From Geovibrio ferrireducens (GTDB lineage: Bacteria; Chrysiogenota; Deferribacteres; Deferribacterales; Geovibrionaceae), in the NCBI RefSeq assembly GCF_026226615.1, contig NZ_JAJAPB010000002.1:124001-188000 (forward strand): a stretch of DNA of 64,000 nucleotides, given 5' to 3'. The notes below the pieces were generated by a model. It made no database searches and was not told the origin of the DNA. It saw only the letters and a program-made list of their open reading frames with translations. A program made the translations under genes and the position numbers. Shown here in pieces: positions 10,097-21,629 of the stretch (position 1 is its first letter; every line of letters begins with the position of its first letter).

Positions 10097-11287
10097 TTAT
10101 TCAACTATGCACTGAGCATTGCTGAATTTCACGTGAGCGTCAAGGAAGTGGAGTCTTTCCTTCTGAGCAAACTTGCAGTCCTCTATGAGGCCGAAATACA
10201 TTTCGCCCGCTCTGCCGCCTGAGGCGCAGTGGAAAATCAGATCCCCTTCTTTCGGAAGAAGAGAAGTGACAGCCTCGCAGCCTTCTTTGTACATTTTGTT
10301 CACGTCAATGTTTATTGCGCCTTCAATGTGGCCGTTCTGGAATTCAGCGGGAGTCCTTACATCAACAATAATGATATTAGCAGGTCTGGAAGGAACAAGT
10401 GTTTTGAAGTAATCCTTGTCAACAGAGCCGGGTTCAGCGCCCTGCTTGATTCCTGTTGCGGGAGCAGCAGCGGCAGCGGCTTTAGGAGCGGCAGCAGTCA
10501 TTGTTCCGCCCATTTTTTCCCATTCGGGAAGGCCGCCCGCGTATATAAGCGGTTTTTTATAGCCGAGCTTCATAGCCTCTTCTGCAACAACGTGCGATTT
10601 AACGCATTCGTAACCGCCGCAGTAAACAACGAATGTCTCGTTTTTGTCAGCGGGAAGAAGGTGTTTGAACTGCTCAAACTTGTTGTCCGGAACATTTACG
10701 GAACCGGGGATTGTGCTTTTTTCAAAAACTCTTTCGGGACGGGCATCAACGAAAAGCGCTTTGCCTTCGGCCTGAAGTTTTTTTGCTGTTTCAAAGCCTA
10801 TTTCGATAGCCTGACCTTTTTTTGTCCAGTCGGGCATGCCGTCAAGATAGATTTTTATGTTAGTGTAGCCTTTGTCTTTGAGCATTTTAGCGTCATCAAG
10901 ACTTTTTATGCAGTCCACACCGCCGCAGTAAGTGATTATGTATGTGTCTTTTGTCACTTTCTTTTCAGCGAGAACAGGGAAAAACTGCTCAAATTTGTTG
11001 TCAGGGATGTTGACTGAGCCGGGGATGTGACCCTGATCAAATGTACGCTCAGGTCTGGCATCCACAAGAACGCCTCTTGAAGCGTTGAACATGCCGTCGC
11101 CGACAACTTTTTTAACTTCGTCAAATTTGACCATTTCGAAACCGGATTCGGCTATCTGCTCCGCAACAGACTTAGCCTTCACTGCCTCGGCGGGGGCTGC
11201 TGCCTCCTTCGTTGCCGTTCCGCAGCCAACAGCAAAAAGAGCCATGCTGAGCACGGCAGTCATGAGAATTCTGCTTAACATACGCAT
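10097..11287 (-). CDS. Lipoprotein with three rhodanese domains
   Basis: Likely periplasmic sulfane-sulfur transferase, similar in role to the Sud polysulfide carrier. The signal ends in a lipobox-like AVGC (Cys about 22), so lipid anchoring is expected. Three rhodanese domains follow. Domain 1 (about 50-160) has active loop YCGGVDC and domain 2 (about 165-265) has YCGGYEC; both share VDARPER and PGSVN.PDNKFEQF, showing internal duplication. Domain 3 (about 290-396) is a different type with HCASGGRAG. All three keep the catalytic Cys. An Ala-rich linker (KAAAAAAPA) separates domains 2 and 3. GGAGGT precedes the ATG. It lies downstream of psrABC but has its own 426-bp upstream region, so probably its own promoter. 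Confidence 0.88.
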   Translation of the reverse strand: MRMLSRILMTAVLSMALFAVGCGTATKEAAAPAEAVKAKSVAEQIAESGFEMVKFDEVKKVVGDGMFNASRGVLVDARPERTFDQGHIPGSVNIPDNKFEQFFPVLAEKKVTKDTYIITYCGGVDCIKSLDDAKMLKDKGYTNIKIYLDGMPDWTKKGQAIEIGFETAKKLQAEGKALFVDARPERVFEKSTIPGSVNVPDNKFEQFKHLLPADKNETFVVYCGGYECVKSHVVAEEAMKLGYKKPLIYAGGLPEWEKMGGTMTAAAPKAAAAAAPATGIKQGAEPGSVDKDYFKTLVPSRPANIIIVDVRTPAEFQNGHIEGAINIDVNKMYKEGCEAVTSLLPKEGDLIFHCASGGRAGEMYFGLIEDCKFAQKERLHFLDAHVKFSNAQCIVE

Positions 11288-11713: not shown

Positions 11714-12925
11714 CTAATGGTGGCTCTCCGTCTCAAGATTCAGGAACTTCTCCGCTGAGAAATACAGCAGGAAAAACACACCGAAGCCGAACATATAAAC
11801 AAGCCATTCAAGTGCCGAAGGGCTGTACATAGCAAGTCCGAGCGCATCGGTAACTACTCCTGAACCGGGGAAGCCTTCCCTCATAGGAGGAAGCTGACCC
11901 GCAACCACAAAGTCAAACCTTGTGAAAAACAGGCCGATGAGGAAAATGAATCCGGCAAGGCTCAGCTTTTTCACGCTGCCTTTAGCAGTCACTATGAGCG
12001 CGAGGGGCAGAACAACCGCCAGAAGCATTTCGCCTATCCAGAAGTTGAACGCTAAAGGCCCGGAAACAAGTGCCATGACAGACATATAAGCGTCCCCCGG
12101 CTCAGTGAATATTGATGAAAGCATCTTCCACAGGTAAAGGAACATCATCACCCCTATTCCGCCGCCCATGAGCTTGCCGAGGGAGAGCATAGAGGGTTTG
12201 AGTTCTTCGGGAAGGCTGCCTTTATAAACTATATTGTGCACGAGGATAAGCAGTGCTGCCCCGGCTGTTACCCCTGAAACCACAAGGAAAGTGGAGAAGT
12301 ATATGCCGTGATACCAGTCCCTGGCGTTAAGCGAACCGAAGACATAGCCAAGGTTGCTGGTCGCAAGCACACCCACAAGAAGAGCAAGAAAGCCCGCAAC
12401 AGCAGCAAGCTTATGATCGCTTTCTGTCTGGTTCGGTTTGAATATCAGGTAAAGCTCAAAGGCGAGTATCACAAGCTCAATACCGTAGAACATACCCATC
12501 CAGAAGATGGGAGCCTTGAAGTTCGGGCTTATCATCATGTAAACCATTCTCAGCGGGTTGCCTATCTCCATAAGGATCTGCGTGAAGCCCGCAAGGAGAA
12601 CAATTGTAGCCAGAACAACTATCCTTTTGCTTATCTTCGCATATTTTTCATATCCGAAAGCATGCCCCAGACCGCCTATAAAAGCTATCCCGGTGGAGAT
12701 GATAACAAAATAGGCATATGAGGAGATCAGAAGCCCCCACGGAACCTGTCTGGTTACGCCGTAGGATTCATGGTGTCCTTTTACGAACACTGTAACAACC
12801 GCAACCGCCCCCACAGCGCAAAGTATAAGGCCGAGGACTATGAAAGGCATGGCGGGAATGTCCTTATTATTAACTATAAGGGACTTCAAAAAAGATTTTC
12901 CGTGGTTTTCCGTATGTGCTGCCAT
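11714..12925 (-). CDS. psrC: Polysulfide reductase membrane subunit PsrC (NrfD family)
   Basis: Quinol-oxidising membrane anchor of a PsrABC-type complex. The 403 residues form about nine to ten hydrophobic helices, starting with PFIVLGLILCAVGAVAVVTV near residue 25. The NrfD-like pattern includes FIGGLGHAFGYEKYAKI, GNPLRMVYM and PIFWMGMFYGIEL. It ends 14 nt after psrB in the same operon, with GGGGGATG before the ATG. It passes electrons from menaquinol to the PsrB clusters. NrfD-family anchors also serve thiosulfate, tetrathionate and nitrite enzymes, so the substrate is set by PsrA rather than by this gene. Confidence 0.9.
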   Translation of the reverse strand: MAAHTENHGKSFLKSLIVNNKDIPAMPFIVLGLILCAVGAVAVVTVFVKGHHESYGVTRQVPWGLLISSYAYFVIISTGIAFIGGLGHAFGYEKYAKISKRIVVLATIVLLAGFTQILMEIGNPLRMVYMMISPNFKAPIFWMGMFYGIELVILAFELYLIFKPNQTESDHKLAAVAGFLALLVGVLATSNLGYVFGSLNARDWYHGIYFSTFLVVSGVTAGAALLILVHNIVYKGSLPEELKPSMLSLGKLMGGGIGVMMFLYLWKMLSSIFTEPGDAYMSVMALVSGPLAFNFWIGEMLLAVVLPLALIVTAKGSVKKLSLAGFIFLIGLFFTRFDFVVAGQLPPMREGFPGSGVVTDALGLAMYSPSALEWLVYMFGFGVFFLLYFSAEKFLNLETESHH

Positions 12926-12938
12926 CAGAACATCCCCC

Positions 12939-13493
12939 TTATTTTATATAGTGCAGCCGGGGTCTGGTATTCTTCTCCGGCTTAAGCTGATAAGAATGGT
13001 TACGCGCAAGCACTTTGCTTGCTTCACTTTCGGGATCGTTAAGATCACCGAAAACCCTTACCCTTGTGGGACATGTTTCCACACAGGCCGGTTCCCTGCC
13101 TTCGGGCTGACGCTGGTAGCAGAATGTGCATTTGTCTATGGCGTGAAGATGAACGTTCTCGTATCTCGCGTCATAGGGGCATGCGGTCATGCATGCTTTG
13201 CAGAGAATGCACTTATCATAGTCTATAAGCACAACACCTTCCGGCGATTTATAGGTTGCCTTGGTGGGGCAAACGCTTGCACAGGGTGTGTTCTCGCAGT
13301 GCTGACACTGTGAGGGCTGGTATTCCTGCGAGAGGTTCGGGTAAGTGCCCTTAAGCTCAAGCTCGCTGACCCATATTCTGTATTCGCTGTCACCGGGGTG
13401 GATCATATTCTCAAACTTGCAGGCAACGGTGCATGCCTTGCAGTTGAGGCATTTTCTGGCATCAAGAACAATGCCGAATTTTTTGGTAGCCAT
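12939..13493 (-). CDS. psrB: Polysulfide reductase iron-sulfur subunit PsrB
   Basis: A 184-residue ferredoxin-like subunit with four [4Fe-4S] cluster motifs. The first is CLNCKACTVAC (about 16-26), the second CQHCENTPCASVCP (about 63-76), the third CILCKACMTACP (about 94-105) and the fourth CTFCYQRQPEGREPACVETC (about 121-140). This is the DmsB/PsrB/PhsB pattern. It carries electrons from the membrane subunit PsrC to the catalytic PsrA. There is no signal peptide, so it must travel with PsrA through the Tat pathway. Spacings to psrA and psrC are about 14 nt each. Confidence 0.95.
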   Translation of the reverse strand: MATKKFGIVLDARKCLNCKACTVACKFENMIHPGDSEYRIWVSELELKGTYPNLSQEYQPSQCQHCENTPCASVCPTKATYKSPEGVVLIDYDKCILCKACMTACPYDARYENVHLHAIDKCTFCYQRQPEGREPACVETCPTRVRVFGDLNDPESEASKVLARNHSYQLKPEKNTRPRLHYIK

Positions 13494-13506: not shown

Positions 13507-15822
13507 CTAAGCCTTGCTTACGGTTACAAAGGTTTCATGCATAGCTGCATTACCGGAAATGGGCTCTATGTAGTCCTCAAGAATTGCTGCCTGTGAGGCG
13601 CCCTTCTGATAAACAAGGCTCATCCCTTTTGAAACGCGGCCGAACCCATGTGCGTAGTAAACGCAGTCGGGGCGGATCTTCTCTGTAACTTCGGCTCTGA
13701 GCGTCTGTTCGCCCACTGAGCTTTTCACAACAACTCTGTCACCGTTTTTGATGCCGAGTCTGAAAGCCTCCTTGGTATTGATCCAGAGGGTATTTTCCTT
13801 CTGTATCTCCCAGAGGTATTCGTTGTTCTGTGTCCCGGTGTGGGTGTTCCAGCCGTGTCTGCCGAGGATAAAACGGAACTGACCGTTCTGGGGCTGTCTT
13901 GCTTTTCTGTAAACAGGAAGGGAATCAAGCCCTTTTTCGGGGTATTTCACGTTGGTGAATTCTATTTTCCCGCTTCTGGTTTTGAAGCGGAAGCCCTCTC
14001 CTGAGGCTGTGCCGTAAACGCCTTTATCGGTTTTGTAGATCACGCCCTCTTTAAGGAGCCTTTCATAACCGTTTTCATAGCCGCTGACCTGATACTTGAT
14101 GTAATCCTGTATCGGGGCATGGAGAATAGCCTCAATGAAGTCTTCCTTGAAGTACTCAAGTTCTTCCTCGTCTGTATCATCCCAGAGCTCAGGAATTTTC
14201 AGCATCTCATCCACTATTCCCGCTGTTATCTCAAACATTGACTTGGTCTGGTAAACAGGCTCAATACACGCCTGACGGAAGGTAGCTATGGGCCAGATTC
14301 CCGCAAGACTGTGCACCACGTCCCATCTTTCCAGATAGGTGGATTCGGGAATAACCAGATCCGCGTAGTAGGCGGTGTCTGACATCTGAATATCTATCAT
14401 GCAGATAAAGTCCATCATCTCCATCATTTTCAGGGTTTTCGCCCTGTTTGGAGCAGCTTCCACAAAGTTCTGCTTGTAGATCATCATCATTTTTACGGGA
14501 TAAGGCTCACCCTTAAGGACAGCCTCGCGGAAGCGAATCCAGCTTCCGTCCTTCTCACCGAGGTACGCAACGGAATCAAGGGGAAGTCCCGCCTCTTTTC
14601 TGGCATCATCCGGGAGGTTGTTGTCAAACTCGCCGAAGGATTCCACATCGAGCCTTTCCTCAACCATATCGTAGAAAGGATACATGACATCAGGGGTCTT
14701 GAGGGGAACACCGGCTTTGGGAACTATGCCGCCCGGAACATCCCAGCAGCCGCAAAGGGCGGGGAGGATGGCACAGGCTCTACGGAAGGCAACGTCATCC
14801 ACATACCACGATGTTCTCCTGCCGGGGTAAACCACGGAGCGGGGAGCATATTTTGCAAATTCGCGGGCGCACCAGCGAATCTCAGAGGCGGGAATTTCGC
14901 ACTCCTTCTCTGCCCATTCCGGAGTATACTGCTGAACATGAGCCTTGAGTTCCTCAAAGCCTTCGGTCATATTCGCCACAAACTCTTTATTATAAAGCTC
15001 TTCGTTGATTATCACGTTTATCATGCCGAGCATGAAAGCCATGTCAGTGGCGGGCTTAACCGGATACCACTTATCAGCTTTCGCGGCAGTGTTTGTAAAT
15101 CTGGGGTCCAGAACCACAAGCTGCTGACCTTTGGGCCTGTAGCGGAGGAAGTCCATAGAATCGGGTGTGACAATCGCTTCCGCCCTGTTGGCGCCGGGCA
15201 TTATAACAAACATGGCATTAGCCAGATCCGCATCAGGATAAACTCCGTAAACAGATGACCAGCCCTGAATTGTGGATGAGAGACAGAGCGAAGGGTGACG
15301 CACGGTGTTGGTTGAGCCGTAGGTCTGTGCCAGCATATGGAAGCTGCCTTCCTGAAGCCCTTCTGAGGAGAAGAAGGCCACGGATGAGCGGTTTTCATAT
15401 TTTGCCTTGGCCTCTGCGAGCTTCTGAGCGACGATCTGGAAAGCCTCTTCGTATGAGATTTTTCTCCATTTATTCTCGCCTCTTTCACCGTCCCTTACGA
15501 GCGGTGCTTTAAGCCTTTCGGGGTTGTAGGGTTCCTCCGCGCCTGCATTGCCTCTTGCGCAAAGCATTGAGCGGCTTTTAAAAAAATGGGGGTTGGGGTT
15601 AAGCTTTTTGATGCGCCCGTTAACCACGTGGGCATAAAACCCGCATTTGTTAACGCACATTTCACAGGATGAAGCGACGTGTTTTTCGCCCTTTTCCCCT
15701 GTCTGCGCATCACCGTGTCCGCTTTCCGCAACCGCCGTGAGGGATGAAAGATTCGCTGCCGCCACTGCCGCCGCGAATGCCCCTCCGGAAGCTGCAAGAA
15801 ACTTCCTGCGACTGAGCTTCAT
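13507..15822 (-). CDS. psrA: Polysulfide/thiosulfate reductase catalytic subunit PsrA (molybdopterin)
   Basis: A 771-residue DMSO-reductase-family enzyme for periplasmic sulfur respiration. The Tat signal SRRKFLAASGG lies at residues 4-14. The N-terminal cluster site is CEMCVNKC with a fourth Cys in MLCARG. The molybdenum ligand is Cys in HPSLCLSS, as in PsrA and PhsA, and is not selenocysteine. Cofactor-binding segments such as VVYPGRRTSWY and FRFILGRHGWNTHTGTQ (near the C-terminus) are present. Length fits PsrA/PhsA better than arsenate reductase ArrA or tetrathionate TtrA, but polysulfide, sulfur and thiosulfate cannot be told apart from sequence. AGGAGGT precedes the ATG. Neighbours PsrBC, rhodanese and TorD fit a sulfur substrate. 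Confidence 0.88.
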   Translation of the reverse strand: MKLSRRKFLAASGGAFAAAVAAANLSSLTAVAESGHGDAQTGEKGEKHVASSCEMCVNKCGFYAHVVNGRIKKLNPNPHFFKSRSMLCARGNAGAEEPYNPERLKAPLVRDGERGENKWRKISYEEAFQIVAQKLAEAKAKYENRSSVAFFSSEGLQEGSFHMLAQTYGSTNTVRHPSLCLSSTIQGWSSVYGVYPDADLANAMFVIMPGANRAEAIVTPDSMDFLRYRPKGQQLVVLDPRFTNTAAKADKWYPVKPATDMAFMLGMINVIINEELYNKEFVANMTEGFEELKAHVQQYTPEWAEKECEIPASEIRWCAREFAKYAPRSVVYPGRRTSWYVDDVAFRRACAILPALCGCWDVPGGIVPKAGVPLKTPDVMYPFYDMVEERLDVESFGEFDNNLPDDARKEAGLPLDSVAYLGEKDGSWIRFREAVLKGEPYPVKMMMIYKQNFVEAAPNRAKTLKMMEMMDFICMIDIQMSDTAYYADLVIPESTYLERWDVVHSLAGIWPIATFRQACIEPVYQTKSMFEITAGIVDEMLKIPELWDDTDEEELEYFKEDFIEAILHAPIQDYIKYQVSGYENGYERLLKEGVIYKTDKGVYGTASGEGFRFKTRSGKIEFTNVKYPEKGLDSLPVYRKARQPQNGQFRFILGRHGWNTHTGTQNNEYLWEIQKENTLWINTKEAFRLGIKNGDRVVVKSSVGEQTLRAEVTEKIRPDCVYYAHGFGRVSKGMSLVYQKGASQAAILEDYIEPISGNAAMHETFVTVSKA

Positions 15823-15887
15823 ATGAATGGACCTCCTGTTATATCACTAATCTAACCGACAAGTTCGTTTACTAACCGACTGTACAC

Positions 15888-15902
15888 TGTATACAATATA
15901 CA
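15888..15902. promoter_or_regulatory. 15-bp palindrome TGTATACAATATACA, copy 1
   Basis: TGTATA-CAA-TATACA, 66-80 bp before the psrA start codon. The same 15 bases occur upstream of torD (19437-19451). Probable operator of a shared regulator of the sulfur genes; the regulator is not identified. Confidence 0.6.
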
Positions 15903-16078
15903 CTTATATCTATATCTGTTTTCCCTAATATTCGCAAGTATAAATATTTAAAAATTATAACATCGTTAGAATACTATCTGTCTACTGGGAAAAGGCGCTA
16001 AATTCTCTATGACCAAAATCTTATGTGCGGACATGAAGCGGAACAAAGTTTGCAGCAAGGTCATTTATAAGCCTTAAA

Positions 16079-16104
16079 GCGGGAGCCCCGGAAAGAGCCC
16101 CCGC
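16079..16104 (-). terminator. Hairpin after the DUF3373 gene
   Basis: On the minus strand GCGGGGGCTC pairs with GGGCTCCCGC-type sequence (10 bp with G-U pairs, 6-nt loop) just after the stop codon. No T-run follows. Confidence 0.6.
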
Positions 16105-16113
16105 ATAAAATTT

Positions 16114-18117
16114 TTAGAAACTGTAAGTAAAGGAGCCGTAGAATTTCTCAACCTTATCAACAACAGGCATCATAGCGTGAAGACCGTTTACGTCGTCAAT
16201 CTTGGTGGGCGCACCCATGGGGTTGCCGCTGCCTGTGTATTCATAGTCGAAATACTGATAGCCGATTGTGGCGAACAGCTTGTTGTCAACTATGGGCTGA
16301 TGGTAGTAAACCTCGTAAACCTTACCTCTCACTGCGAGTTTGCTGCCCACAATGTCATCCTCGCCCGCGGTGAAGTTTATCCAGTTTTTGCTTCCCTGGT
16401 TGTATTCAAACCCAAGCTTGCCGCCTGTTACGGGGAGTGCGGGAGTTGTCACGCCCACCCATACCATGTTGCCGTGCTTGCTGCTGTCTGAACCGAGAAG
16501 CTTGTCCTGATCCATAAACTGGAACATGGGGTTGTTTGACCTGCCGTCCGGGTGGGTCTGGCTGAGGTTGTATGAGGCAAACCAGTTAAAGCCGAAGTTC
16601 TCACCCTGAACAAGGAAGGCGTGCATTTCTATGTCGCCTATTTCCGCTGTGGGCTCAAACCTTGAGGCGTAGCCGCCGTAGTTGGGGTTAAACGAATATT
16701 CGTCGTACTGTCCGTCCATGTTGTAGTCTTTGCCGCTTATATAGAAGGGCATAGCTACCATTCCGGTGAAGCCGTCTGTCACGCCGAATCCTCTGGCGTA
16801 GTTGTACCAGACTTTGTACTGCTCATCGTCATAGAACTTGACAATGATTCCGCCGAACTCAACATCGTCCACATTAGGATTGGAAATGAGACCGTTGTTG
16901 GCAGAAAGAGCGTTTGCTGTACCCCACTGACCTTCAAATCCTTTGCCGTAGCAGAATTTTATGAAGGAGCCGGGAACCCATTCATCAAAGTCAAACTGGA
17001 GTGACGCGCCGTCGAAGTTCCACTGGATGATGGAAGCCACGGGAGAACCGCCGAGAACGGAGTTCTCATGGTTTTCATAACCGGGGCCGTAGGTGGAGGG
17101 GCGGCGTCCGAATGAGAAGTGGTAACCCACATCGCCTATATTGTTTTTGTAAACAAAGTAGGCTCTCTCAACATGTACAGAGTCATCCGTGGGAACAGCA
17201 GCGGAGTTGCCGTCAAGATACATGCTCTTGAATGTTCCGTCGAAGAACCTGATGTTGTTGGAATCGCCCCATGATTTATACATAACAAGCCTGCCCGCGA
17301 AGCTGAGGTTGTTGTTGACCTTGCTGTTGAGACGCAGACGGAGTTTGTTGGTGAACATAGAGCTGTTTTCGGCGCTGTACTTTCTGGGTTTTACACCCTT
17401 GAACATAGATTTCACTACCGCAGCCTCTGCAGAGGAGAGAGTGTTGTCGTTCATAAGGTAAGCAAAGGCCATCATGTTTGCCATCATCTGCGCCTGAGCC
17501 GCCTGAGCCGGGTCGTTCAGATCCAGACTGTTCATGGTGGCAACGGCTATAACAACGTCCTGATAATCCGTAACGCCGTTCATGTTGCCGTCTGCGAGGC
17601 CTGTCATGCCTGTAAACTCAATCATACCGTCTACCCAGTCGGTATTGCTGAAATTACCCATGCCGTCACTGCCGATAAGAGCACCGAAATTCATCTGGAA
17701 TTCCTGCGCAACCGCTGAGGTTCCCATAAGCTCGCTGTAAAGAGCTCCGAATTCCTGCTGATAATTCTGCATGAAAGCATCGTTCCAGAAGTCGCCGTTT
17801 GTGTCCCATGCGGAACCGCCGGCACCGGAAACCAGTGTACCCTGAAGCCAGAGGCTCATCATGTCGTTGGCGTATGCGGGAAGCGCACGCACATCGTCAT
17901 AGCTGATGGAGTCAAGCCTTGTCCTCAGTTCAACACCGAGAGTTGTTTTGTCAAGCGCCGTGTGACGTTCTGTCACGTCCACACGCTTGCTGATTGTGTC
18001 TATCTCCTGCTGGAGTGCGGTTATCTGGTTTTTGAGATCCTCAAGGGAAGGATCGGCCGCAAAAGCAAGAGAGACAGACATGAATACTGTTAAAAGCGCA
18101 ACGAGAAGCTTATTCAT
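16114..18117 (-). CDS. DUF3373 outer-membrane protein
   Basis: A large outer-membrane beta-barrel-type protein of the DUF3373 family, function unknown. I start it at the ATG at 18117 because this gives a clean signal peptide (MNKLLVALLTVFMSVSLAFA) with GGGGGCAG upstream; the longer frame adds 27 unlikely residues. A short coiled coil (LEDLKNQITALQQEIDTI) follows. Three EF-hand-like loops (DTNGDFWND, DGNMNGVTDYQD, DYNMDGQYDEY) suggest calcium binding. The body alternates aromatic strands and the protein ends in Phe (GSFTYSF), as outer-membrane barrels do. It follows the cytochrome and TorD genes, and in other anaerobes I recall DUF3373 beside small cytochromes, so a role in sulfur or metal respiration is possible. 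Confidence 0.82.
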   Translation of the reverse strand: MNKLLVALLTVFMSVSLAFAADPSLEDLKNQITALQQEIDTISKRVDVTERHTALDKTTLGVELRTRLDSISYDDVRALPAYANDMMSLWLQGTLVSGAGGSAWDTNGDFWNDAFMQNYQQEFGALYSELMGTSAVAQEFQMNFGALIGSDGMGNFSNTDWVDGMIEFTGMTGLADGNMNGVTDYQDVVIAVATMNSLDLNDPAQAAQAQMMANMMAFAYLMNDNTLSSAEAAVVKSMFKGVKPRKYSAENSSMFTNKLRLRLNSKVNNNLSFAGRLVMYKSWGDSNNIRFFDGTFKSMYLDGNSAAVPTDDSVHVERAYFVYKNNIGDVGYHFSFGRRPSTYGPGYENHENSVLGGSPVASIIQWNFDGASLQFDFDEWVPGSFIKFCYGKGFEGQWGTANALSANNGLISNPNVDDVEFGGIIVKFYDDEQYKVWYNYARGFGVTDGFTGMVAMPFYISGKDYNMDGQYDEYSFNPNYGGYASRFEPTAEIGDIEMHAFLVQGENFGFNWFASYNLSQTHPDGRSNNPMFQFMDQDKLLGSDSSKHGNMVWVGVTTPALPVTGGKLGFEYNQGSKNWINFTAGEDDIVGSKLAVRGKVYEVYYHQPIVDNKLFATIGYQYFDYEYTGSGNPMGAPTKIDDVNGLHAMMPVVDKVEKFYGSFTYSF

Positions 18118-18184
18118 AAACTGCCCCCATAAAAGGAATGAAAATTTATATAAACCGTGCCGAAGGGAGCACAGGTCTATACCT

Positions 18185-18228
18185 AAGTGCTTATGCACTT
18201 AAGGCAGGCATTGAAGGGAATGCCTGCC
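18185..18228 (-). promoter_or_regulatory. Tandem hairpins between cytochrome and DUF3373 genes
   Basis: Two perfect stems: GGCAGGCATT/AATGCCTGCC (18203-18228, 10 bp) and AAGTGC/GCACTT (18185-18200, 6 bp). No T-run follows either. They may process or stabilise the transcript, allowing different levels of the two products. Confidence 0.55.
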
Positions 18229-18245
18229 GTGCACATATATTTTCC

Positions 18246-18587
18246 TTAACCGCAGGTTTCAGGCTGATCGCTGTCCAGCGCGTGGTTTTTAAGATATTCG
18301 TACATATCTTCCCAGTCGCTGGGCTGAAGAGCTTCATGAGAAGCGCCTTTTGCCTTGTGAGCAGCATCAATCTTAGCGTGGTTGCCGTCAAAAAGGGCTT
18401 TCCACTGAGCCTGTGTTTTTGAAACGGGAGAAAGATCAGAAGCTTTGCTTCCGTCATGACATGCCGTGCGGCAGCTTTTCTTCCATGTTCTTTTACCTTT
18501 TCTTTCATTTCCCGCAGCAAAAGCGGTAGCAACCGCAAAAGCGAGAATCAGAGCCACTGTGAGAGCCATAACAGCTTTTCTTTTCAT
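18246..18587 (-). CDS. Small periplasmic c-type cytochrome with CX3CH motif
   Basis: A 113-residue secreted protein: a signal peptide to about residue 24 (VATAFA), then a small cytochrome-like domain. It resembles small monoheme cytochromes that begin GNxRKGKxxxKKxCRxCH and end in a (D/E)-SPQPETCG-type tail. Here the heme site reads CRTACH, that is CX3CH with one residue more than the standard CXXCH. I checked the codons (TGC CGC ACG GCA TGT CAT), and the frame is open on both sides. If heme is attached it is by a non-standard motif. It lies between torD and the DUF3373 gene, transcribed in the same direction. Confidence 0.7.
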   Translation of the reverse strand: MKRKAVMALTVALILAFAVATAFAAGNERKGKRTWKKSCRTACHDGSKASDLSPVSKTQAQWKALFDGNHAKIDAAHKAKGASHEALQPSDWEDMYEYLKNHALDSDQPETCG

Positions 18588-18634
18588 ACTAGACCTCCAA
18601 AATTTAACGGGCTTTAACCCTTTAGTTTTTATTT

Positions 18635-19318
18635 TTATCCGAAGATAAGCTCTTCGAAAATCTGTTCTGCATCAGCAAGAAAGCCCTGAACAAGCCTTCC
18701 GGCGGTTTTGTAAAACTCCTGCTCTGCCTCCTCTGTCACCTTAGCGGCAAAAGAGCCTGCAAAAGCAGGGAAAAAATCCCTCATGATCTCAAGCAGGGTA
18801 AAAAAACTGCCGACACTGCATGAACCGGAACCGGCGGCTATCTTTTCTGTCAGCACGGAGCAGAACTCAAGCACAACACTGATATGATCCTCAAGCTCGG
18901 TCACTGGCGCACTCATAACGAAACCTTCCGCCTCCATAAGCTCTTTCAGGCGCATCATTTTATCGCCCCAGAGAAGCTTTTCCTCGCTGAGCCAGCAGGA
19001 AGCATAGGGATTGGCTTTCATGCCGCCGGGAGCGTTGATGAAAAGACGCACGTAGTCATATTCCATCTCACGCCTGTCAGTGAGCTCAAGGGTTCCGGCG
19101 GAATATTCATCAGCAAAAGACTGAAAATCAGAAATGTATTTCAGGAGAGTGTCGTATACAGGCGCATCCGGATACCTGTAAACAAGGGAAAGGAACATAA
19201 AAGCGGCGGAAAGGCTCACCAGACCGTCATTATCAGGGTTTGTGCCGGAGAGAACATCAGTGGCTCTCTCATAGTTATTTTCCGCAAAAGCGTTTTTCAG
19301 ACCTGTCATTGAACTCAT
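18635..19318 (-). CDS. TorD/DmsD-family chaperone
   Basis: A 227-residue all-helical cytoplasmic chaperone of the TorD/DmsD/NarJ family. It binds Tat signals of molybdoenzymes and helps cofactor insertion. The family pattern is visible: LSLVYRYPD near the N-terminus, then MEYDYVRLFINAPGGMKANPYASCWLSEEKLLWGD, from which the conserved Y-x-R-L-F and PYAS motifs stand out, and an acidic C-terminal half. The probable client is PsrA, whose gene lies about 2.8 kb downstream. The upstream region carries the same palindrome as psrA, which supports joint control. It has its own transcription unit with the cytochrome and DUF3373 genes. Confidence 0.88.
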   Translation of the reverse strand: MSSMTGLKNAFAENNYERATDVLSGTNPDNDGLVSLSAAFMFLSLVYRYPDAPVYDTLLKYISDFQSFADEYSAGTLELTDRREMEYDYVRLFINAPGGMKANPYASCWLSEEKLLWGDKMMRLKELMEAEGFVMSAPVTELEDHISVVLEFCSVLTEKIAAGSGSCSVGSFFTLLEIMRDFFPAFAGSFAAKVTEEAEQEFYKTAGRLVQGFLADAEQIFEELIFG

Positions 19319-19694
19319 AATAAAAAACCTCAGGACTCAACTTTGATTAATCTATATTATCTATCTGATATTCACCATATTCTAAGATTGGAATATAGCT
19401 ACTATACCTATGTATTAAAAAATGTAAAGAGTTTTTTGTATACAATATACATTTTAATTCATCTCATAAATTATAGTTACATAATATGTTTTCCTGATAT
19501 TTAAAAGACTAATTCCGACATATGTTACTTTTTTGTTACGTAACTTATTTATCACTAAAGAGTTTAGCATGGCAATATTTTAGAAATAAAACATCAAAAT
19601 AAGCTGTCTGAACAAAATCAATGTCAATTCATAGTAAAGTTGAATAATCAAAATATTGTGTTTTTTGAATCAATTTCTTTTTTACAGGATTCGG
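19319..19694. other. AT-rich regulatory region upstream of torD
   Basis: About 375 bp, no gene. It holds a second copy of the palindrome TGTATACAATATACA (19437-19451), a TATAAT on the minus strand near 19475-19482, TGTTTTCC (19497-19504) as in the psrA region, and a 10-bp palindrome GTTACGTAAC (19535-19544). Confidence 0.55.
19437..19451. promoter_or_regulatory. 15-bp palindrome TGTATACAATATACA, copy 2
   Basis: Identical in all 15 bases to the site upstream of psrA; 119-133 bp before the torD start codon and downstream of a possible -10 (TATAAT). This would suit repressor binding if that -10 is real. Confidence 0.6.
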
Positions 19695-19740: not shown

Positions 19741-21048
19741 TCATGTCAGTATATCCGACCAGATACTCAGCGCCCAGTCATCCGCATGCTTCGCATAAAG
19801 CTCGGAGCGCGCAGGAGAAAGCCCGCCGCCTCTGCTGGTTATCAGCTTTGTGCTTTCATCATAGTCGTAAACACCGGAGATGAATATGGCTTCCCTGTCG
19901 TTAACCATGCTGTAGCAGGTATTCACAAGGTTAGGTTTCAGCGGCTCCCTGCCGTTCAGCTGGCTGACCACAGCAGCGGCGGCCACCTTACCCATGGAGT
20001 TGGCAACAAAACCGGACTTTGGCACAGGCCCCACAGTTCCCGCATGGGTGGAATCGCCGAGGACAAACACATCCTTAAGCGCCTGTGATTCCAGAGTAAA
20101 CGAATTAACCTTAACCCAGCGTTCCGTTTCAGGCAGAAGCCCCGCTTTATATGCGAATAAACCTGCCTTCATGTCGGGAATTATATTCGCAACCCCGCCC
20201 CTGAAATCCCCATTGGTGGTTTTCACGGTTCTGCTCTTAACATCCACACCCTTCACAACTGTATCGGGGACATACTCTATCACATCCTTATAATAGTCAT
20301 CCCACGCGGCGTGGAAAAGCTTGCCCTTGGAGGCTATATCCTCATTGCCGTCAATAACTATCAGCTTTGAGCCTTTCTTATTGTTCTTAAGATAAAAGGC
20401 TATCTGGCATGCCCTTTCGTAAGGTCCGGGCGGGCATCTGTACGGCGCAAGGGGTACAGTGAGAAGCACATTCTCACCGTTTTTAAGATTTACAAGCTGT
20501 TCACGGAGGAGGATAGTCTGTCTGCCAGCCTTGTAAGCATGGGGGAAAACATCCTCAGCCGATTTTGACCAGCCCTCAATCTTTTCATACATAAACTCAA
20601 CACCGGGGGAAACGATAAGCTTGTCATACTCTATACGCCCTGCCGCGGTGTGAAGCTGCTTTGCGGCGGCATCAAGCCCAGTGGCCTCGGTCTTAATTAT
20701 TTTTATGCCGTAGTTTTTTGACAGGCTGTCATAGGTGAAGGTGATCTCCTGAATAGTTCTCAGACCTGACAAAACAAGGTTGCTCATCGGGCAGGAGACA
20801 AAGTTGTCCAGCCTCTCCACAATAACAACCTCAATGGACGGATCGCACAGCTTAATGTACTTTGCCGCGGTCAGTCCGCCCCAGCCGCCGCCAAGCACAA
20901 CAACCCTTTTGCCGGATTTAGGCAGGATGACCTGTTCCTGCTGTTTATTTATATTGAGGCTCAAACCGCCCGCACAGCCGGAAATGCCCGCAGCGGCTAT
21001 CACTGCGGCGGAAGCCTTGACAAAGTCTCTTCTCGATAAACCGCTCAT
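19741..21048 (-). CDS. fccB: Sulfide dehydrogenase flavoprotein FccB
   Basis: Periplasmic FAD-containing subunit that oxidises sulfide and passes electrons to cytochrome FccA. The Tat signal SRRDFVKASAAVIAAAGISG is followed by a Cys (GC at about 24-25), which might also allow lipid attachment. The dinucleotide fold reads VVVLGGGWGGLTAAKYIK and continues to VVIVERLDNFVSCPMSN, where this Cys matches the first redox-active Cys of the family. The signature YRCPPGPYERACQIAFYLK follows near residue 205-225. 435 residues is normal. Its ATG overlaps the fccA stop (ATGA). It stands next to a reductive Psr system, so the cell appears able to run sulfur chemistry in both directions. Confidence 0.92.
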   Translation of the reverse strand: MSGLSRRDFVKASAAVIAAAGISGCAGGLSLNINKQQEQVILPKSGKRVVVLGGGWGGLTAAKYIKLCDPSIEVVIVERLDNFVSCPMSNLVLSGLRTIQEITFTYDSLSKNYGIKIIKTEATGLDAAAKQLHTAAGRIEYDKLIVSPGVEFMYEKIEGWSKSAEDVFPHAYKAGRQTILLREQLVNLKNGENVLLTVPLAPYRCPPGPYERACQIAFYLKNNKKGSKLIVIDGNEDIASKGKLFHAAWDDYYKDVIEYVPDTVVKGVDVKSRTVKTTNGDFRGGVANIIPDMKAGLFAYKAGLLPETERWVKVNSFTLESQALKDVFVLGDSTHAGTVGPVPKSGFVANSMGKVAAAAVVSQLNGREPLKPNLVNTCYSMVNDREAIFISGVYDYDESTKLITSRGGGLSPARSELYAKHADDWALSIWSDILT

Positions 21049-21629
21049 CTGTTCCTCCCCAGTTCTGTGAGATAGGAAACCATGGCATCTATCTCAACTT
21101 CGCTGACATCCTTAAGGAAAGCCATTTCGTCCGAGGGGATAAGCCCTGCCTTATACTTCATCAGCACATTTTTGAGGTAGCCGGGAACCTGACCTGCTAT
21201 TGCGGGTGTTTCCCCCTCCCCTTTGCCGTTGTCAGTGTGACAGCCGAAGCAGGAGTAATCCTCAATGAGCCTGACAGTTGCGCCCATATTGTAGCTGTTT
21301 ACCTTAACTCTGGAATCGACCCACTTTTTATCTGCCATCCATTCGGATATGGCGGCAAGCTGTTCCTCTGTGTAGCCGGAGGCCATCAGGGACATCTCCA
21401 CACTGTGGGAGCGTTTCTTCTCTTTCAGTTCAAGGAGAACTTTTTTAAGATACTCGGCATTCTGCCCGCCGATAATGGGAATGAATGCGCCGGGCGAGGC
21501 TCCGTTTGTTCCGTGACACCCTGCGCACGTTTTCGCGGTTCTTTCCGCGGTGTCTCCTCCTGCTGCTGCCCACACACTGAGGCTTGAGAGCACAAGGATA
21601 GAGAGCAGATAAAGCGCTGACCTCTTCAT
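21045..21629 (-). CDS. fccA: Diheme cytochrome c FccA (cytochrome c4 type)
   Basis: Electron-accepting subunit of flavocytochrome c sulfide dehydrogenase. It has 194 residues with a signal peptide ending near residue 21 (SVWAAA), then two cytochrome domains with heme sites CAGCH (about 35-39) and CFGCH (about 130-134). Candidate axial Met ligands lie in VEMSLMASGYT and SDEMAFLKD. The stop overlaps the fccB start by 4 nt, so the two are translationally coupled, and a cytochrome immediately before FccB is the usual arrangement. Confidence 0.9.
   Translation of the reverse strand: MKRSALYLLSILVLSSLSVWAAAGGDTAERTAKTCAGCHGTNGASPGAFIPIIGGQNAEYLKKVLLELKEKKRSHSVEMSLMASGYTEEQLAAISEWMADKKWVDSRVKVNSYNMGATVRLIEDYSCFGCHTDNGKGEGETPAIAGQVPGYLKNVLMKYKAGLIPSDEMAFLKDVSEVEIDAMVSYLTELGRNR

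Follow-up and report, generated by a model that had tools for sequence, protein, structure and literature searches.

A palindrome shared by psrA and torD in Geovibrio ferrireducens as a putative operator of a GntR/FCD regulator of central energy metabolism

The question that this locus raises is why two minus-strand genes in a 64-kb stretch of Geovibrio ferrireducens DNA (the window, by which we mean the whole stretch that was analysed), namely, the psrA-like gene for a molybdopterin reductase and the torD-like gene for a chaperone, carry the same 15-bp palindrome in front of them. An earlier note, made from the sequence alone, had proposed that psrABC and torD-cytochrome-DUF3373 form one regulon of sulfur respiration. 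The palindrome, TGTATACAATATACA, is indeed present in exact copies at 15888-15902 and 19437-19451, each 5' of a minus-strand gene. We propose that these palindromes are, very probably, operators of GntR1, a GntR/FCD protein of the FadR subfamily that would control central energy metabolism together with psrABC and torD-cytochrome-DUF3373. The putative operators are as follows.

15881..15895, minus strand: second, overlapping operator, TGTATACAGTGTACA, offset by 7 bp; from the mismatch search and the matrix score
15888..15902, minus strand: operator upstream of psrA, TGTATATTGTATACA in the gene direction; exact 15-mer, 23.3 bits, kept in 20/20 best psrA orthologs
19437..19451, minus strand: operator upstream of torD, TGTATATTGTATACA in the gene direction; exact 15-mer, kept in 18/23 genomes

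The palindrome and its wider motif

It had been argued in the earlier note that fifteen identical bases which also form a perfect dyad are unlikely by chance. Repetition alone is not rare, because 41 exact 15-mers, many of them overlapping, are repeated in the 64 kb; what stands is that perfect 6-3-6 dyads occur 25 times in the window and that only TGTATACAATATACA recurs. With up to 3 mismatches to the 15-mer the window has 7 matches against 0.86 expected, and none of 100 shuffles attained 7. A second site, TGTACACTGTATACA at 15881-15895, overlaps the psrA copy with an offset of 7 bp. When a scoring matrix derived from 84 sites was used, the psrA and torD sites scored 23.3 bits each and the overlapping psrA site 21.3 bits; the next-best site in the window scored 5.2 bits and the best site in the reversed window 10.2 bits. 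Since only three sites score highly, there are just two promoters of this kind in the window. The other shared element that had been claimed, TGTTTTCC followed by an AT tract, has to be given up: the window contains 11 copies of TGTTTTCC, and the promoters of relatives that were compared do not preserve it.

In the organism's own genome the exact 15-mer is present in 3 copies, the third being 5' of sdhCAB. The full consensus is TGTATACnGTATACA, from which the window 15-mer differs by 1 mismatch, and it consists of two GTATAC boxes that are 7 bp apart and sometimes of a third box; an extra box at the 7-bp spacing was found at 27/84 sites compared to 12/336 control positions. Sites in this genome came from pattern searches and sequence stretches, and their neighbours were then named by profile and domain matches. 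There are 24 matches with up to 2 mismatches on both strands, at about 18 places. Among the tricarboxylic acid (TCA) cycle genes the targets are those for citrate synthase, aconitase B, NADP isocitrate dehydrogenase and malate dehydrogenase, as well as sdhCAB; mdh is followed by sucCD-like and oxoacid:ferredoxin oxidoreductase-like genes, which were read by eye. The targets in energy metabolism are complex I (from nuoA), both ATP synthase operons, and an Mrp-type antiporter. Domain matches identified one more target as a NuoF/GltD-like and NuoG-like pair (L030:6967-11187), which we take to resemble SfrBA of Geobacter, and this pair carries the same motif in the own genome, in six relatives, and in two Geobacter-type genomes. 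A gene for a GntR/FCD regulator is also a target and has sites before its own start. Weak sites within genes (L031, L032, L035, and L036) were regarded as chance matches.

The motif is conserved in the phylum. In seven relatives, drawn from five families, each genome has 12-19 sites with at most 1 mismatch; a reversed-pattern control gave 0-2. The genes that recur in most of the seven are gltA, acnB, idh, mdh (often downstream of idh in one operon), sdhC, nuoA, atpF, atpB, the sfrB-like gene, gntR1, psrA, and torD, and in some relatives sites are also found at fumAB, a sodium:solute symporter gene, an acetyl-CoA hydrolase/transferase gene, and a rhodanese gene. The site is 5' of 20/20 best psrA orthologs and of 0/8 second paralogs, and it is upstream of torD in 18/23 genomes. 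Thus, the membership of psr and torD in one regulon is upheld but its assignment to sulfur respiration is not, given the targets in the TCA cycle, complex I, ATP synthase, and the SfrAB-like pair. Many copies of the 15-mer at unrelated sites had been named as the finding that would speak against a regulon; many copies were found, yet the genes that they precede are related in function, and the sites are kept in relatives.

In the genome G006 (L166, G006:C2:882500-888500) a rhodanese-domain gene has a strong site, at 2976, over the -10. The gene is related (47%) to the window gene at 10097-11287, and the window copy is without a site.

GntR1, the candidate regulator

The earlier note had reported no obvious regulator gene nearby. 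A candidate exists on another contig: the gntR1 gene is at G000:C14:64849-65511. GntR1 has an N-terminal GntR winged helix (PF00392, 65.5 bits with a cut-off of 27) and a C-terminal FCD effector domain (PF07729, 83.1 bits with a cut-off of 24.3), and it scored under every NCBIfam equivalog cut-off (PdhR 46.9/330, NanR 69/260, and PhnR 123.6/271.5 bits). The GTATAC boxes fit the operator consensus of the FadR subfamily, GTM-N0-1-KAC (PMC4494728). Families f1-f5 comprise 24 genomes, of which 23 have a GntR1 ortholog, and all 23 gntR1 promoters have the motif; motif counts (up to 2 mismatches) are likewise above control in 23/24 of these genomes. In a homolog search of the phylum genomes, GntR1 orthologs were not found in families f6, f7, and f9, where the motif counts are on the whole near control, and none of the 6 sdhC orthologs checked in f6/f7 genomes has a site. 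The family f10 has one GntR1 homolog with 43-45% identity.

Directly after gntR1 is a tandem paralog, gntR2 (G000:C14:64142-64771, minus strand), whose product is 46% identical to GntR1, forms its own clade, and has a helix-turn-helix sequence nearly identical to that of GntR1. The two genes are side by side in 23/24 genomes of f1-f5, and GntR2 probably also acts on the operators. That gntR2 is a broken gene was considered and rejected because the flagged TGA is its own stop codon and the gene is intact.

The protein and the motif are also found outside the phylum. Geobacter-type bacteria have one strong GntR1 homolog per genome (45-47% identity), the gene for which has the motif in its promoter, and 42/44 homolog promoters at non-Firmicutes loci have the motif compared to 1/36 at the more distant Firmicutes loci. 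The motif targets in these bacteria are nuo, gltA, acnB, idh-mdh, an sdh/frd operon, atp, the sfrAB-like genes, gntR, and a CoA-transferase gene. In the order of Geobacter sp. AOG1, 90 of the 97 genomes have at least 1 site, typically 5-10, with 0-1 in the control. The gltA promoter carries the site in Geobacter sp. AOG1, Citrifermentans bremense, and Pelovirga terrestris.

In the FCD domain of GntR1, H141, H185, and H207 are invariant in 15 homologs and Asn137 is at the usual Asp position. The usual metal ligands of FCD domains are an Asp and three His residues, to which these positions of GntR1 may correspond. By sequence the nearest solved structure is 7xp0 (E 9.6e-26 with the single sequence and 4e-33 with the profile), with which the FCD histidines align; PDB 7xp0/7xp1 is presumably PmiR, the GntR sensor of 2-methylisocitrate of Pseudomonas aeruginosa. 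Because of the invariant histidines and because the nearest structure is taken to be that of a sensor of a TCA-like acid, we guess that the effector would be a carboxylate, probably metal-bound. The mechanism would be that GntR1, probably together with GntR2, binds TGTATACnGTATACA and sets the TCA cycle, complex I, ATP synthase, and the SfrAB-like NAD(P) oxidoreductase, and that the accessory respiratory operons psrABC and torD-cytochrome-DUF3373 would be under the same regulator.

Promoter geometry and the sign of regulation

The genes and predicted promoter elements at psrA and torD are as follows.

11714..12925, minus strand: psrC/NrfD-like membrane subunit gene (weak DsrP/NrfD matches)
12939..13493, minus strand: psrB-like iron-sulfur subunit gene (profile match)
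13507..15822, minus strand: psrA-like molybdopterin reductase gene, Phs/Psr family (PhsA 505.6 bits, cut-off 694)
15909..15914, minus strand: predicted psrA -10, TATAGA, just upstream of the operator (promoter prediction)
15932..15937, minus strand: predicted psrA -35, TTGCGA (weak; TTGCnn recurs in relatives)
16114..18198, minus strand: DUF3373 gene (PF11853), true start probably near 18118
18246..18587, minus strand: gene for a small exported protein with a heme-type motif (from the sequence)
18635..19318, minus strand: torD-like chaperone gene (PF02613; TorD/DmsD score below cut-off)
19401..19406, minus strand: predicted torD -10, TATAGT (promoter prediction)
19423..19428, minus strand: predicted torD -35, TTTACA, 16 bp downstream of the operator centre (promoter prediction)

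The score of the psrA product is under the PhsA cut-off and therefore does not establish its substrate, and the torD product can be assigned only as a chaperone of the TorD/DmsD family. The heme-type motif of the product of 18246-18587, between torD and the DUF3373 gene, is CRTACH, that is, CXXXCH and not CXXCH. Adjoining the torD operon at 19741-21629 are two genes without the motif, one for a c-type cytochrome and the other for a flavocytochrome c/sulfide:quinone reductase-like protein that has a Tat signal.

All promoters discussed here are predictions and distances are from the site centre to the -35. On this basis the sites fall into two classes. Sites of class A either overlap the -10 or lie after it, and they are those of idh, mdh, acnB, nuoA, the sfrB-like gene, gntR1, and psrA. 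At idh the distance from the site centre to TTGACA is mostly -35 or -36, at acnB it is -28 in most genomes and also in two Geobacter-type genomes, and at the psrA promoters (TTGCnn, 16-17 bp, TATATT or TATAGA) the site is at -42, -35, or -27. In class B, which comprises gltA, sdhC, and torD, the site precedes the -35 and lies some 50 bp before the predicted start. The distance to the -35 is 17 bp in 21/22 gltA promoters and 16 in one, and 17 also in Pelovirga; it is 14 or 15 bp in 24/24 sdhC promoters; and at torD 15/18 genomes have 16 or 17 bp and the other three, which belong to genus g2, have 26 bp. Upstream sites tend toward one degenerate half of the ATATACA type, with TGCACAC at gltA of g2 and g4. 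In the first set ATATACA appeared to be a clean marker of upstream sites (25/27 vs 0/51), but it was downgraded to a tendency because of the TGCACAC at gltA of g2/g4 and because psrA, which had been counted as upstream, overlaps the -10. A tie between this variant and the gntR duplication was also rejected, as the variant occurs in the single-copy f10 genome G001.

The position of class A sites at or after the -10 suggests that they repress, and the near-fixed spacing of class B sites together with the shift of about one helical turn at torD suggests that they activate through contact with RNA polymerase, although they may instead repress. Since psrA is in class A and torD is in class B, the two may be regulated in different ways and possibly with opposite sign.

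Alternative explanations and known systems

A chance repeat of an AT-rich palindrome would be in keeping with the position of the psrA and torD sites in AT-rich intergenic DNA and with the other repeated 15-mers of the window, but it is refuted by the shuffles, the reversed-pattern controls, and the conservation, and its probability is negligible. A sulfur-specific regulon of psr and torD would account for the 15-mer that is common to both promoters; this is highly improbable in view of the third exact copy 5' of sdhCAB, the one-mismatch sites at TCA, nuo, and atp genes in seven genomes, and the motif at the same genes in Geobacter-order bacteria. Another possibility is that an unlinked regulator with a 7-1-7 palindrome, for example of the Fur, Crp, or HgtR type, reads the site and gntR is merely one of its targets. 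Binding of GntR1 to the motif is, after all, deduced from sequence, there is a gene for a CRP-like regulator near acnB in the own genome (L025:11244-11942), and HgtR represses gltA, atpG, and nuoA in Geobacter (PMC7726332). We consider this unlikely because the presence of GntR1 tracks that of the motif in the phylum and in Desulfuromonadota, because GTATAC matches the FadR-subfamily consensus, and because a GntR protein of Geobacter has been reported at the gltA promoter, according to the passage of PMC10599522 cited below. An explanation that keeps the same regulator but allows only repression deserves more weight, and we put it at somewhat less than an even chance. Here the gltA, sdhC, and torD sites, which lie about 50 bp upstream, would keep polymerase from making contacts 5' of the -35, the targets within one pathway would all respond alike, and the strong TTGACA promoters of gltA and sdhC would need no activator; on the other hand, the spacing to the -35 is fixed across five families and in genus g2 the torD spacing changes by one helical turn, from 16 to 26 bp, both of which suggest polymerase contact.

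Several points weigh against operators of GntR1 with two modes of action. Opposite signs for gltA and for acnB/idh, which belong to one pathway, would be odd, and upstream sites could repress. The f7 genome G037 (23 sites vs 10 in the control) and the f6 genome G033 (13 vs 4) exceed control without a GntR1 match, the f1 genome G024 is not above control at 2 mismatches (24 vs 27), family f8 keeps only a GntR2-like protein and yet has no motif excess, and torD of genus g4 is without a good site. The motif, its conservation, its link to the gntR1 gene, the target list, and the predicted promoter geometry are observations; binding by GntR1 and its effects on expression are conclusions from sequence. 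Control by GntR1 nevertheless remains, in our judgement, very probable. Beyond this, we suggest only tentatively that one ancient GntR/FCD regulon, common to Deferribacterota, their deep relatives of f10, and Desulfuromonadota, governs the acetate-oxidising energy chain as a whole, that the duplication in Deferribacterota brought two metabolite signals to one operator set, repressing at the start point and activating from about 50 bp upstream, and that psr and torD were wired into it.

A GntR/FCD metabolic regulator is a known kind of system. No description of this regulon, of its spread across phyla, of the tandem paralog, or of the two geometries was found in the literature searched, which includes few subscription papers, nor were the motif strings found in the bacterial regulation papers searched. 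The control of TCA flux and of the respiratory chain in anaerobic respirers such as Geobacter and Geovibrio is poorly understood, and the present analysis supplies for it a defined motif with its list of targets, a named regulator gene, and, promoter by promoter, the sign that is predicted. PdhR is an FCD GntR regulator of central and respiratory metabolism with ndh and cyo as targets and a different operator, and GntR1 reached just 46.9 bits of its cut-off of 330. PmiR reportedly senses 2-methylisocitrate and regulates virulence, whereas the targets here are the TCA cycle and the respiratory chain. NanR, an FCD GntR protein that is described in a passage of PMC8012715 as binding (GGTATA)3 repeats, is similar in its tandem-box operator but differs in that GntR1 scored 69 bits against its cut-off of 260 and in that the boxes here are 7 bp apart with a third box at 27/84 sites. 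HgtR of Geobacter, which represses gltA, atpG, and nuoA (PMC7726332), is a separate gene, GSU3364. A further known system that comes close is GSU3370, a GntR-family protein that binds the gltA promoter in G. sulfurreducens and of whose mechanism and role little is known, according to a passage of PMC10599522 that cites Ueki and Lovley 2010. GSU3370 is a candidate ortholog of GntR1 and no more than that, which is a further point against our proposal. Like GntR1 it belongs to the GntR family, it acts at gltA, a predicted target of GntR1, and relatives in Geobacter have the same motif at gltA, acnB, idh-mdh, nuo, and gntR, whereas the duplicated gene and the psr and torD targets belong to the Deferribacterota side.

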